Assembly: GCF_030548175.1 (NCBI RefSeq)
Contig: NZ_JAUORX010000003.1
Span: 124,001 to 188,000, forward strand
DNA length: 64,000 bases
Reading direction: 5' to 3'
Origin: Cognatishimia sp. 1_MG-2023
GTDB lineage: Bacteria; Pseudomonadota; Alphaproteobacteria; Rhodobacterales; Rhodobacteraceae
The notes beneath the pieces were generated by a model. The model saw nothing but the letters and a program-made list of their open reading frames with translations, was not told the DNA's origin and did not search any database. The position numbers were made by a program, and so were the translations under genes. Positions 3,998 to 57,793 of this stretch are shown piece after piece. Position 1 is the first letter of the stretch; every line of letters begins with the position of its first letter.

Positions 3998-5641
3998 TTA
4001 AACGAGGCGCGAATTGTCTTTTGCGGCGCGGATAAAGTCTTTGAACAGCGGATGCGGATCAAATGGTTTGGATTTCAGTTCTGGATGGAACTGAACGCCG
4101 ATGAACCATGGGTGATCTTCCCATTCTACGATTTCTGGCAATTTGCCATCTGGGCTCATGCCAGAAAACTTAAGACCGGCTTTTTCAAGCTGTTCACGGT
4201 ATTTCGTGTCAACTTCGTAACGGTGACGGTGACGTTCGTCGATGGCGGTTGTGCCATAGACTTTCGCAACGTTGGAGCCTTCGGCCAAAGTGGCGTTATA
4301 GGCGCCAAGGCGCATGGTGCCGCCTTTGTCGTCATCTGCTTTGCGCTTGACCTTAGCGTTGCCCTGCACCCATTCCTTGAGGTGGTAAACAACTGGTTCG
4401 AAACGCTTTTTACCTGCTTCGTGATCGAATTCTTCGGAGCCCGCATCCGCAACGCCAGCAACGTTACGCGCCGCTTCGATCACGGCCATTTGCATGCCAA
4501 GGCAGATGCCAAGATAAGGCACTTTGTGTTCGCGCGCGAATTGCGCGGCTTTGATTTTACCTTCGGTGCCGCGCTCGCCAAAGCCGCCAGGCACGAGGAT
4601 GGCGTCATAGCCTTCCAAATGCGGAGCAGCTTCGCCTTTGTCAAAGACCTCGGCGTCGACCCAATTGACGTTCACTTTGACACGGTTGTGCATGCCGCCG
4701 TGGATCAGGGCCTCTTTGATGGATTTATACGCATCTTCGAGCTGGGTGTATTTGCCAACGATTGCAACGTTCACTTCACCATCGGTGTTGTGAATGCGGT
4801 CTTGGACGTCGTTCCAGCGCGCCAGGTTTGGTTTTGGGGCAGGGGCGATGCCAAAGGCATCCAGCACAGCCTGATCCAGACCTTCGTGGTGATAGGCCAG
4901 CGGCGCTTCGTAGATCGATTTCAGATCGTAAGCGGCCACAACGGCCTCTTTGCGCACGTTACAGAACAGAGCGATCTTTTCGCGCTCTTTGGCTGGGATA
5001 GGCTGCTCGGAGCGGCACACAAGGATGTCAGGCGCGATACCGATGGATTGCAGCTCTTTCACCGAGTGCTGGGTTGGCTTTGTCTTTAGCTCGCCAGAGG
5101 CCGCTAGGTAAGGCAGCAGTGTCAGATGCATGAACAAGCACTGGCCGCGTGGTTTGTCGTGGCTGAACTGGCGGATGGCTTCGAAGAATGGCAGGCCTTC
5201 GATGTCACCAACCGTACCGCCAATTTCACAAAGCATGAAATCAACTTCGTCTTCGCCGATGGAAATGAATTCTTTGATTTCGTTTGTGACGTGGGGAACC
5301 ACCTGAATGGTTTTGCCCAGATAATCACCGCGGCGCTCGCGTTCTAGAACGTTGGAATAGACGCGACCGGATGACACGGAATCGGTCATGCGGGCAGGGA
5401 CGCCGGTGAAGCGTTCGTAGTGACCAAGATCCAGATCGGTTTCCGCGCCATCATCGGTGACAAACACCTCGCCGTGCTCAAACGGGCTCATGGTGCCCGG
5501 ATCAACGTTGAGATAGGGGTCAAGTTTGCGCAGACGCACCGTGTAACCACGCGCCTGAAGCAGTGAGCCCAAAGCCGCAGATGCAAGGCCTTTGCCCAGC
5601 GACGAAACAACACCACCTGTGATGAAAATGAACCTTGCCAT
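3998..5641 (-). CDS. pyrG: CTP synthase
   Basis: This 547-residue enzyme makes CTP from UTP, ATP and glutamine. The N-terminal synthase domain starts [19 protein letters not shown] with the ATP loop SLGKG. The C-terminal class I glutamine amidotransferase domain carries the nucleophile in GICLGMQM and the His/Glu pair in QFHPEL. The start at 5641 is chosen because homologues begin at MARF and GGGGGT lies upstream. A start 9 codons further out has no ribosome binding site. secG is upstream on the same strand, and a sigma-70-like promoter lies between them. Confidence 0.98.
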
Positions 5642-17424: not shown

Positions 17425-17467
17425 GAATCGTACGTTTCAACCCGTGAATCGTACGAATTTCCACATT
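17425..17467. repeat. 43-bp palindromic dispersed element, copy 1
   Basis: The element starts GAATCGTACGTTTCA, has arms TCGTACGTTTCA / TGAATCGTACGA with one mismatch and a 5-nt spacer, and ends CGTACGAATTTCCACATT. Copy 2 at 54710-54752 matches at 39 of 43 positions. Here it lies upstream of the methyltransferase gene and downstream of the STAS-like gene. Confidence 0.85.
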
Positions 17468-17521
17468 AACCAGATGTTCGGTATCCGTGCGCAGGACGCG
17501 CAACCGTTTCGTCGCGAAACC

Positions 17522-17887
17522 TCAGGCGGCCAGCCAATCCTCGGCGGCTTTTACGTCATCAAGCGGGAAACTCTTAATCTCGATCCCCGGAAAAATGGCG
17601 CCCTCAATCTCGGCGGCGGTGCGTATCCAGCTTGCGTCGCTTAGGACCGCGCATTTGTCGAACTTGCCAAGTAGGCCAAAAAGCTTGGACAATCGCGTGA
17701 ACTCTACACCAATCGCGCCAATCGTTGGCATGGTGAAGTCTTTGATCTTATAAAGCATTTTTCCATTTTTGATGTCTTCGGATTGCTCAATCAGCTCATC
17801 CAATCCAAGACGCATATCGTCCGTATTCAATGTGCCAAACAGTTCTATATCAAGGCGGTCTGGACTTTGTTTCGTGATGTTAAACAC
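17522..17887 (-). CDS. STAS/SpoIIAA-like protein
   Basis: This 121-residue protein matches the SpoIIAA-like/STAS fold, with SPDRLDIELFGTLNTDDM near the start, YKIKDFTMPTIGAIGVEF in the middle, and FDKCAVLSDASWIRTAAEIE before a C-terminal DDVKAAEDWLAA helix. The GTG start at 17887 is chosen because GGAGGG lies 7 nt upstream and homologues start at this point. The ATG at 17956 would add 23 residues and has no such site. It is probably cytoplasmic and of unknown partner. It lies downstream of acs, after the acs terminator. Confidence 0.85.
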   Translation of the reverse strand: MFNITKQSPDRLDIELFGTLNTDDMRLGLDELIEQSEDIKNGKMLYKIKDFTMPTIGAIGVEFTRLSKLFGLLGKFDKCAVLSDASWIRTAAEIEGAIFPGIEIKSFPLDDVKAAEDWLAA

Positions 17888-43455: not shown

Positions 43456-43579
43456 TCTGCCCTCCGCAGATTGACGAAACACTGGGCGAAAAGTTGACTG
43501 GATGTCTGAGGACCGCTCCCCGTTGCACATCTCAAGTATCAACCCCGCCCAGACACCCCGCCTGGGTTAAAAGTCATCT

Positions 43580-43735
43580 GGATGGCAGGTCTCCTGACTT
43601 ACGGCGTTACACTCTGTCCCTTCCCAGCCCGAACAGGCCAGTGGTTATGACAAAGCGCATACCGCTCACAGTTGCGGGGGCAGTCGTGGACTATGCACAT
43701 TCAGCGATGCAGCACCACGTTCCCTTTTCATCCAA
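43580..43735 (-). promoter_or_regulatory. Cobalamin (adenosylcobalamin) riboswitch
   Basis: On the minus strand the class I features are present in order: P1 strand TGGATG, AAAAGGGAACGTGGTGC, the conserved GCCCCCGCAACTGTGAGCGG, ACCACTGGCC, CTGGGAAGG, and the 3' part GTCAGGAGACCTGCC followed by CATCCA that closes P1. It lies 125 nt upstream of the DUF1636 gene and should repress the importer when coenzyme B12 is abundant. Confidence 0.93.
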
Positions 43736-43971
43736 GTTTGCCTTACGCATCCCCGGAACCATCCCCGAAGACGTGCACTTTCAGCCTTATGCTGTCAAGG
43801 GTGGAAGCATCCCGGTTAGCGCCATCAGAGCGCCTCCGCTGCAATGTTGATCATATCCAGCTTTAACAAGCAAAAGCCTGTGCCATCTAATCCTGCCGCG
43901 CTCAGTTATCCGCTTTCACAAAACCACCGGACAACGTAAGCATTCGCAACGCTGCTATTCTGGGAACCGTC

Positions 43972-54709: not shown

Positions 54710-54752
54710 GAATCGTACGTTTCAGCGCGCGAAACGTACGAATTTCCACATT
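54710..54752. repeat. 43-bp palindromic dispersed element, copy 2
   Basis: Perfect arms TCGTACGTTTC / GAAACGTACGA with a 7-nt spacer, ending AATTTCCACATT, in the convergent gap between AraC and hisH. It matches copy 1 (17425-17467) at 39 of 43 positions; the differences lie in the spacer and inner arm. Confidence 0.85.
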
Positions 54753-54787
54753 TTTCAACCGTTAAGTCACCGCGCGTTAAAGCGCAA

Positions 54788-55426
54788 TTAAGGTTTCCAC
54801 GTCAGGAAATTGCCGATCATCCGCAGGCCAACATGTTGGCTCTTTTCCGGGTGAAACTGCATGCCAACCATCGTGTCACGGCCAATAATTGCAGTAATAT
54901 CACCAGCATAGTCCACATGGGCGATCCGCTCTTCGGGTTTTGCGACCTGAAACTGGTAGCTGTGCACAAAATATACGTGCTGCCCGCTTTCAACCCCATC
55001 CAAAAGCGCATGCGGTTGATCAATCACAAGGTCATTCCAACCCATGTGCGGAACCTTAAGGCTTTGATCTTTAGGGGAAATTTTAACAACATCACCCGCA
55101 ACCCAGCCAAGGCCCTTGGTCTCTTCATACTCATGACCGGTTGTGGCCATCAGCTGCATTCCGACACAAATTCCCAGGAACGGACGGCCTTTTTGCTCCA
55201 CCGCTTCAACCATTGCGTCATAAATTCCCTTATGACCCCGCAATTCTTCCGCACAGGCCGGAAACGCACCGTCACCCGGCAAAACCAAACGATCCGCTTT
55301 CGCAACAACATCCGCATCAGATGTAACAACCACATCCCCCGCATCAACCTCTAAGGCCATGCGTTGAAACGCTTTTTCCGCACTATGCAGGTTGCCGCTT
55401 TCGTAATCGATGATCGCTGTGAGCAT
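54788..55426 (-). CDS. hisH: Imidazole glycerol phosphate synthase, glutaminase subunit
   Basis: This 212-residue class I amidotransferase has GICVGMQLMA with the nucleophile Cys, and the His/Glu pair in QFHPEKSQ. It works with HisF. The start at 55426 (MLTAIIDYESGNLHS) is by homology; the frame to 55495 adds 23 residues. The TetR gene lies 55 nt upstream on the same strand. Confidence 0.94.
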   Translation of the reverse strand: MLTAIIDYESGNLHSAEKAFQRMALEVDAGDVVVTSDADVVAKADRLVLPGDGAFPACAEELRGHKGIYDAMVEAVEQKGRPFLGICVGMQLMATTGHEYEETKGLGWVAGDVVKISPKDQSLKVPHMGWNDLVIDQPHALLDGVESGQHVYFVHSYQFQVAKPEERIAHVDYAGDITAIIGRDTMVGMQFHPEKSQHVGLRMIGNFLTWKP

Positions 55427-55481
55427 GTGATTTACCCGAATTTTTGTGATGTCTTTCAACTGACGCCAAATCCGCTTCGGG

Positions 55482-57524: not shown

Positions 57525-57599
57525 TGGAGCGGGCGAGGCGATTCGAACGCCCGACCCTAACCTTGGCAAGGTTATGCTCTACCCCTGAGCTACGCCCGC
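57525..57599 (-). tRNA. tRNA-Gly (GCC), copy 1
   Basis: Acceptor GCGGGCG/CGCCCGC, T discriminator, encoded CCA, anticodon loop with GCC, T-loop TTCGAAT. It is identical to the next two copies, from which it is separated by 22-nt spacers. Confidence 0.94.
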
Positions 57600-57621
57600 G
57601 CTACAAAATGTCTGGAACCGA

Positions 57622-57696
57622 TGGAGCGGGCGAGGCGATTCGAACGCCCGACCCTAACCTTGGCAAGGTTATGCTCTACCCCTGAGCTACGCCCGC
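57622..57696 (-). tRNA. tRNA-Gly (GCC), copy 2
   Basis: Same sequence as copy 1, 75 nt including CCA, second of three tandem copies. Confidence 0.94.
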
Positions 57697-57718
57697 ACCG
57701 TCAGTTCTAGTTACTCGT

Positions 57719-57793
57719 TGGAGCGGGCGAGGCGATTCGAACGCCCGACCCTAACCTTGGCAAGGTTATGCTCTACCCCTGAGCTACGCCCGC
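57719..57793 (-). tRNA. tRNA-Gly (GCC), copy 3
   Basis: Same sequence as copies 1 and 2, first in the direction of transcription. The promoter probably lies in 57794-57913. Confidence 0.94.

Follow-up and report, generated by a model that had tools for sequence, protein, structure and literature searches.

A lineage-restricted family of evenly spaced palindromic elements in Cognatishimia: candidate docking sites for a co-evolving DNA-binding protein

We describe a family of short palindromic elements that occupies about 73 sites in the genome of Cognatishimia sp. 1_MG-2023 and is found in three of the nine genus genomes searched, this one included. The family is real, restricted to a lineage, evenly spaced, inherited in position and dialect-forming. 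We are more tentative about its mechanism: with a probability of roughly 0.43, judged from sequence comparison, the elements would be docking sites for a putative, co-evolving DNA-binding protein, probably one that organises the chromosome. Precisely, we propose that the element is a double-stranded-DNA docking site for a sequence-specific protein complex in three sister species, that one trans-acting DNA-binding protein would read all the sites, and that the specificity of this reader may have shifted between species, dragging the sites along. Its role might lie at the level of the whole chromosome (its spacing, compaction or segregation, or the exclusion of division from the nucleoid, as for Noc and SlmA) rather than in the regulation of neighbouring genes; this last step is put forward with more reserve. 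In the common ancestor the family was probably a mobile element of ~94 bp that spread and has since been retained.

In the three carriers a single scattered site family occupies shared loci in three dialects, and six element-free congeners serve as control. This makes testable the joint change in specificity of a DNA-binding protein and dozens of its sites, as well as the organisation of a bacterial chromosome by evenly spaced sites, in a lineage for which no such system is named in the literature searched. In the titles and abstract openings of the papers listed we found no description of such a repeat for Roseobacter, Rhodobacterales or alphaproteobacteria, and a search for regularly spaced nucleoid-occlusion sites brought up only work on Streptomyces ParAB.

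Genomes and searches

The window is the whole stretch of 64,000 nt that was analysed. Its source genome (3.16 Mb, 20 contigs) is denoted G000, and the other genomes of the genus G001-G008; the carriers are G000, G002 and G008. Genes were called by our own codon-usage script, which misses some, for example the methyltransferase gene beside copy 1.

The 73 sites of G000 are the distinct places left from 135 rows of a covariance model built from 26 copies, taken with E up to 1 and after removal of opposite-strand repeats; the weakest has an E of 0.07. A pattern search with at most three mismatches gave 67 places per strand in G000 and none with the reversed control. G002 and G008 were incompletely sampled, and we reckon with about 50-75 sites per carrier genome. 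The spacing analysis took in 52 sites of G002, omitting one on contig C9, and 57 of G008, omitting one on C7 as well as weak rows. Sites were called orthologous when their flanking reading frames were reciprocal matches and agreed in side and strand; this comparison covered 53 sites of G002 and 47 of the ~58 of G008.

The two copies in the window and the anatomy of the element

A sequence-only reading of the window had pointed out a 43-bp palindrome present twice, and this was reproduced: the copies at 17425-17467 and 54710-54752 agree at 39 of 43 positions, with the four mismatches in the centre and the inner arm. The contexts that it gave were also right, copy 1 lying between the methyltransferase and the SpoIIAA-like gene, both on the (-) strand, and copy 2 in the convergent gap between the AraC-type gene and hisH. 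The gapped motif with at most three mismatches produced four strand-hits, at two places of the window, whereas 100 dinucleotide-preserving shuffles produced none. The 43 bp are only the core of the element, since copy 1 runs on to a second palindrome and, at 94 bp in total, extends up to the SpoIIAA-like stop codon (Table 1).

Table 1. Positions of the two copies and of their flanking genes in the window
Feature	Position	Strand	Remarks
Copy 1, long form (94 bp)	17429..17522	+	Comprises head, tail, spacer and distal palindrome; belongs to a set of four near-identical long copies in G000
Copy 1, head	17429..17455	+	Arms CGTACGTTTCA and TGAATCGTACG, free 5-bp centre; GTAC cores 21 bp apart
Copy 1, tail	17456..17467	+	AATTTCCACATT; in the relative G002, AATTGTACAA
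Copy 1, distal palindrome	17506..17520	.	GTTTCGTCGCGAAAC
Copy 2, core only (left end, head, tail)	54710..54757	+	Same gap occupied in G002 and G008
Copy 2, head	54714..54740	+	CGTACGTTTCA-GCGCG-CGAAACGTACG
Methyltransferase, PF13489	16731..17333	-	Flanks copy 1
SpoIIAA-like, PF11964	17522..17956	-	Stop codon directly adjoins copy 1 at its distal end
AraC-type regulator, PF12833	53907..54695	+	Flanks copy 2
hisH, TIGR01855 (over cut-off)	54788..55459	-	Convergent with the AraC-type gene

The G000 consensus is GAAT-CGTACGTTTCA-n5-TGAAACGTACG-AATTTCCACATT. The architecture common to the three species comprises a GTAC box, a dyad of TTTC, 7-bp centre and GAAA, a second box and a fixed tail that contains AATT. 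In two of the three species the second box starts 21 bp after the first. Of the G000 sites, 61 have a second GTAC, which starts at a distance of 21 bp from the first in 57 and of 30 bp in four, and 12 have none; in G002 the distance is 21 bp in 53 of 53. In G008 it is at 21 bp in seven of the 47 copies, at 30 bp in two and at 31 bp in one; the other 37 lack it. This weighs against the docking reading, and so does the symmetry of box 2, which is poor beyond CGTACG.

The distal palindrome (GTTTCGCNGCGAAAC or close) was found at 13 of 73 sites in G000, 8 of 40 in G002 and 8 of 20 in G008. Among long copies, four, including copy 1, are near-identical and two others are identical to each other. The long forms fall into length classes of 86, 93-95 and 103-104 bp. 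Helical phasing of the distal palindrome was considered and rejected, because these classes step by 9 and not by 10.5. Three long copies of G000 (C1:164379, C14:219751 and C17:30824) share some 20-25 bp of extra homology on their left (GGGCAAAGCCCCAC...), which suggests a composite repeat. The ends of 29 long copies were also looked at for the marks of a MITE: one end does not repeat the other in inverted form, and no target-site duplication was evident by eye.

Spacing and gene context

The sequence-only reading had asked for all copies to be counted and mapped, and would have been abandoned had there been no further copies or had they been distributed at random. The count of about 73 disposes of the first possibility. 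As for the second, the 61 intervals of G000 have a mean of 38.4 kb and a coefficient of variation (CV) of 0.516, against 0.944 for random placement, and none of 5,000 placements gave a value as low. Only 8 intervals were shorter than 15 kb (20.4 expected) and none exceeded 100 kb. Without the four recent copies the CV was 0.529, still over-regular, and the 63 strongest sites led to the same result. The CV was 0.631 in G002 (P 0.0006) and 0.66 in G008 (P 0.0008), random placement giving ~0.95 across the comparisons for the three species; short intervals numbered 6 against 9.8 expected in G002 (P 0.09, not significant) and 6 against 13.8 in G008 (P 0.002), and intervals above 100 kb numbered six and five, respectively. 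The non-significant deficit in G002 and the long intervals in both genomes speak against the docking reading, and even spacing could also come from transposon target immunity.

None of the 73 G000 sites lies inside a gene called by our script; 32 are in convergent, 29 in tandem and 12 in divergent gaps. This is a preference for convergent gaps: among 307 gaps of 40-600 bp that hold no element, 45 are convergent (binomial P 2e-9). Hence, the sites are not scattered at random: their spacing is over-regular and convergent gaps are favoured. Against the docking reading it must be said that such a bias is usual for REP-type repeats, as these are presented in the REP account of PMC3733652.

The orientation of the elements along the contigs is mixed, and so are the neighbouring genes, which are largely housekeeping genes (eight named: pheT, mltG, gyrB, metG, rplS, hslV, pth and cobQ). 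A promoter or regulon role was set aside on account of these mixed neighbours. We also set aside an avoided restriction site, since CGTACG occurs at 0.87 of expectation.

E. coli BIMEs are proposed absorbers of positive supercoils between convergent genes, and a site for gyrase or another topology enzyme with this task would agree with the convergent and 3′ placement and with the mean spacing of 38-61 kb over the carriers. However, 41 of the 73 sites are outside convergent gaps, and a strict conservation of bases that changes with the species would misfit a conserved and weakly specific enzyme. We therefore hold a topology-enzyme site to be very improbable.

Distribution among relatives

The covariance model gave no match at E 0.01 in G001 and G003-G007. 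A sequence model made from G008 copies, run on G008 itself, returned 69 rows at E 0.1; in the 11 other genomes tried no row had an E below 0.01. Among 394 genomes of the family, searched with stricter filters at E 1e-4, matches came only from G000 and G008, G002 being evidently outside this sample. The exact gapped pattern had no match in viral contigs nor in a genome contig collection of 84,980 species, from which the nearest relatives may be absent.

The gap behind hisH, that is, the locus of copy 2, holds an element in the three carriers and none in the six other genus genomes. The gap behind pheT holds one in the same three carriers and none elsewhere in the genus, with the exception of G006, where it was unread. 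In a tree from two genes, with G006 placed by HisH alone, the three carriers fell on one side of a split with a support of 92. The best named matches of HisH were from Epibacterium (83%) and Ruegeria (80%), followed by Planktotalea and Loktanella, which places the source in the Rhodobacteraceae, although nearer records may be hidden.

Inherited positions and concerted sequence change

We found 46 of 53 G002 sites and 38 of 47 G008 sites orthologous to G000 sites, with 29 G000 sites shared by all three species; when fewer loci were counted under stricter rules, the figures were 31 of 40 and 15 of 20, respectively. Over the 114 orthologous pairs the smallest offset difference had a median of 6 bp and was at most 20 bp in 75, and homologues were present on both flanks in 48. 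Copy 2 is an ancestral site, paired by flanking-frame orthology with G002 only, the G008 site being outside the fetched set and seen behind hisH. Copy 1 is apparently a recent 94-bp copy: it has no orthologue among the G002 and G008 sites examined, and the G002 gene that matches its right neighbour has no element behind it.

The sequence at shared positions follows the species and not the locus. Arm and tail identity between orthologues was 0.771, 0.717 and 0.662 in the three comparisons, against 0.759, 0.704 and 0.658 for random cross-species pairs, whereas within species it was 0.825, 0.912 and 0.809. The centre reached only 0.44, 0.53 and 0.46 within species. Box 1 is CGTACG in the consensus of G000 and G002 and TGTACA in that of G008, and the tail is AATTTCCACATT in G000, AATTGTACAA in G002 and AATTGCCACATT in G008. 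Since orthologues are no more alike than random cross-species pairs and copies within a species are more alike, the arms are constrained and the constraint is species-specific. From this we infer co-evolution of the arms with a trans-acting reader. The rival account is conversion between copies, and concerted change could indeed be such conversion rather than selection, which counts against the docking reading.

Dialects at shared positions would also be expected of a DNA-uptake-type signal kept uniform by molecular drive. The DUS of Neisseriaceae have dialects and form inverted pairs at the 3′ ends of genes, which the inverted pairs of the element resemble. In contrast with a dense set of single copies, the box GTACGTTTC occurs outside elements once in 618,626 bases of G000 (seven times for the reversed control), and the elements are even at about one per 40 kb. 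A DNA uptake sequence was accordingly set aside, isolated boxes being absent, and we find an uptake-type signal hardly credible.

Double-stranded DNA or RNA hairpin

The sequence-only reading had also offered an RNA structure, and this option came out weakened: the hairpin is kept in two species, while two of its six outer pairs are broken in most copies of the third, even when G-U pairs are counted. The G000 heads fold with means of -15.4 and -17.4 kcal/mol on the two strands, below the -8.3 kcal/mol of shuffles. Over ten stem positions, the Watson-Crick fraction is 0.90 in G000 (73 copies), 0.84 in G002 (53) and 0.63 in G008 (47), and with G-U pairs on the better strand the values become 0.92, 0.94 and 0.77. 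For G008 the count was repeated on 47 copies because an earlier set of 20 came from the hairpin model and so favours a hairpin. In these 47 the inner TTTC/GAAA pairs are kept at 0.81-1.0. Of the four weak outer pairs, two are replaced by G-U on one strand (0.83 and 0.91), and only 0.17 of copies form stem pairs 4 and 6, G-U on that strand included. RNAalifold found no covarying pair within G000.

An RNA hairpin, or a transcription terminator that works in both directions at gene 3′ ends, would make use of the low fold energy, of the dyad (well kept in G000 and G002 and partly through G-U in G008, which we also count against the docking reading) and of the bias to convergent gaps. Moreover, a subset of G000 copies is terminator-like, as the left A-run (A5GGAAT in 8 of 73 copies, A4GGAAT in 13) and the tail form a stem that, on one strand, has a T-run behind it. 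However, the A-run of the A4GGAAT copies is kept at 0 of 9 orthologues in G002 and 0 of 8 in G008, which is not the behaviour of an intrinsic terminator. At pheT, the three carriers have a separate GC-rich hairpin with a T-run, and the element stands between it and the stop codon; several relatives without the element also have such a hairpin. Furthermore, 12 of 73 sites are in divergent gaps, and the spacer length is fixed, though hairpin loops usually tolerate change. For these reasons we consider an RNA or terminator role unlikely; the fixed spacer length, the even spacing and the species code favour DNA as the active form.

A mobile repeat without host function

The family could instead be a REP- or MITE-like selfish repeat, that is, a non-autonomous mobile element of ~94 bp that spread in the ancestor and has no host function. 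It would be tolerated at 3′ ends and in convergent gaps, kept uniform by continued copying or conversion, and spaced by target immunity or by loss through recombination between close copies. The near-identical and the identical long copies agree with this, and so does copy 1, which has no counterpart behind the orthologous G002 gene; that some copies are recent also tells against the docking reading. REPs are short dispersed intergenic palindromes that, in the REP account cited above (PMC3733652), lie for the most part 3′ of genes and where the two neighbours are convergent or unidirectional, and the G000 sites are likewise intergenic and mostly 3′ or convergent.

Unlike REPs and BIMEs of the GTAG and CGTC families, the element has neither tag, the head being flanked by GAAT on its left and by AATT on its right in the consensus of all three species. 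It has a fixed-length centre, is evenly spaced and keeps its positions in three species with concerted change of sequence. No Y1/RAYT transposase (PF01797) was matched in G000, the only carrier in which this was sought, while the same search had matches in 5 of 14 control genomes. Copy 1 had no match in phage and plasmid records. Most sites are common to the species with the centre randomised and the arms intact, a pattern that neutral decay does not give; conversion, for its part, would be expected to make the centre as uniform as the arms. We thus regard a purely selfish repeat as rather unlikely, though a serious competitor of the docking reading.

Candidate readers and known site systems

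A chromosome-organising or partition protein had been the first suggestion of the sequence-only reading. Copy number, convergent bias, even spacing and inherited positions fit such a putative protein. Matches to PF02195 (ParB_N) number four, five and four in the carriers and 1-6 in the six other genus genomes, so these counts do not single out the carriers, which is a point against the docking reading. Clustering 30 of the 33 matches gave no cluster confined to the three carriers. One plasmid-type ParB cluster (63-79% identity) was present in the three carriers and G006 only.

The 15-bp core of the distal palindrome occurs, as GGTTTCGCNGCGAAACC, three times around a plasmid-type parAB in each of G000, G002 and G008, and this triplet is probably its centromere. 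The ParB encoded there matches the TIGR00180 and RepB models below their cut-offs. In G000 (locus L420 on contig C19) the three occurrences are at 4922, 5930 and 7501; loci L421 and L422 show them too. Long chromosomal elements terminate in this core palindrome, and GTTTCGCNGCGAAAC, which differs by one base from the distal palindrome of copy 1, is what surrounds the parAB of G000 three times. This differs from the plasmid partition palindromes of Rhodobacteraceae in that the element is dispersed on the chromosome, is joined to a head and has the distal part only in long copies. The RepABC palindromes quoted in PMC5613091, a source in which reciprocal base changes are stated to set the specificity of such palindromes, differ in sequence from the distal palindrome.

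The consensus given in PMC7383237 is TGTTTCACGTGAAACA for parS and TATTTCCCGGGAAATA for NBS, with RTTTC as half-site. Like the NBS of Noc in Bacillus subtilis, the elements are palindromes scattered over the chromosome with half-site RTTTC; ahead of TTTC the consensus has G in G000 and G002 and A in G008, and parS and NBS differ by G and A in the same way. Unlike them, the half-sites are 5 bp and not 2 bp apart, the sequences depart from the parS and NBS consensus, a GTAC box and a tail are conserved as well, and no cognate ParB or Noc paralogue was found. Taken with the plasmid-type distal palindrome, the RTTTC half-site points to the ParB/RepB family as a possible reader, which is a lead and not a result.

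A more specific version supposes that a plasmid partition system of ParB/RepB type was dispersed over the chromosome and became an alphaproteobacterial system of nucleoid occlusion or chromosome spacing, whose protein would read RTTTCA half-sites in the head, with some sites still carrying the plasmid centromere palindrome and the three sister species using different codes at the same sites. In this specific form we find it distinctly unlikely.

The SlmA sites of E. coli are also palindromes scattered on the chromosome with a central GTAC (GTGAGTACTCAC), and in this the element is similar; its flanks differ and it has two or three boxes per site. With the core of dif-like tyrosine-recombinase sites it shares conserved arms and a free centre of fixed length, a resemblance only.

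Other observations in the window

An Rfam scan of the window gave five matches over the gathering threshold, none of them on either copy. A cobalamin riboswitch is at 43567-43778 (-), with 117.8 bits. Three tandem tRNA-Gly(gcc) genes are at 57525-57793 (-), with starts 97 bp apart. Between ~14687 and 17333 several open frames were uncalled or scored low by the codon-usage script, unlike the rest of the window, and this part is possibly acquired DNA.
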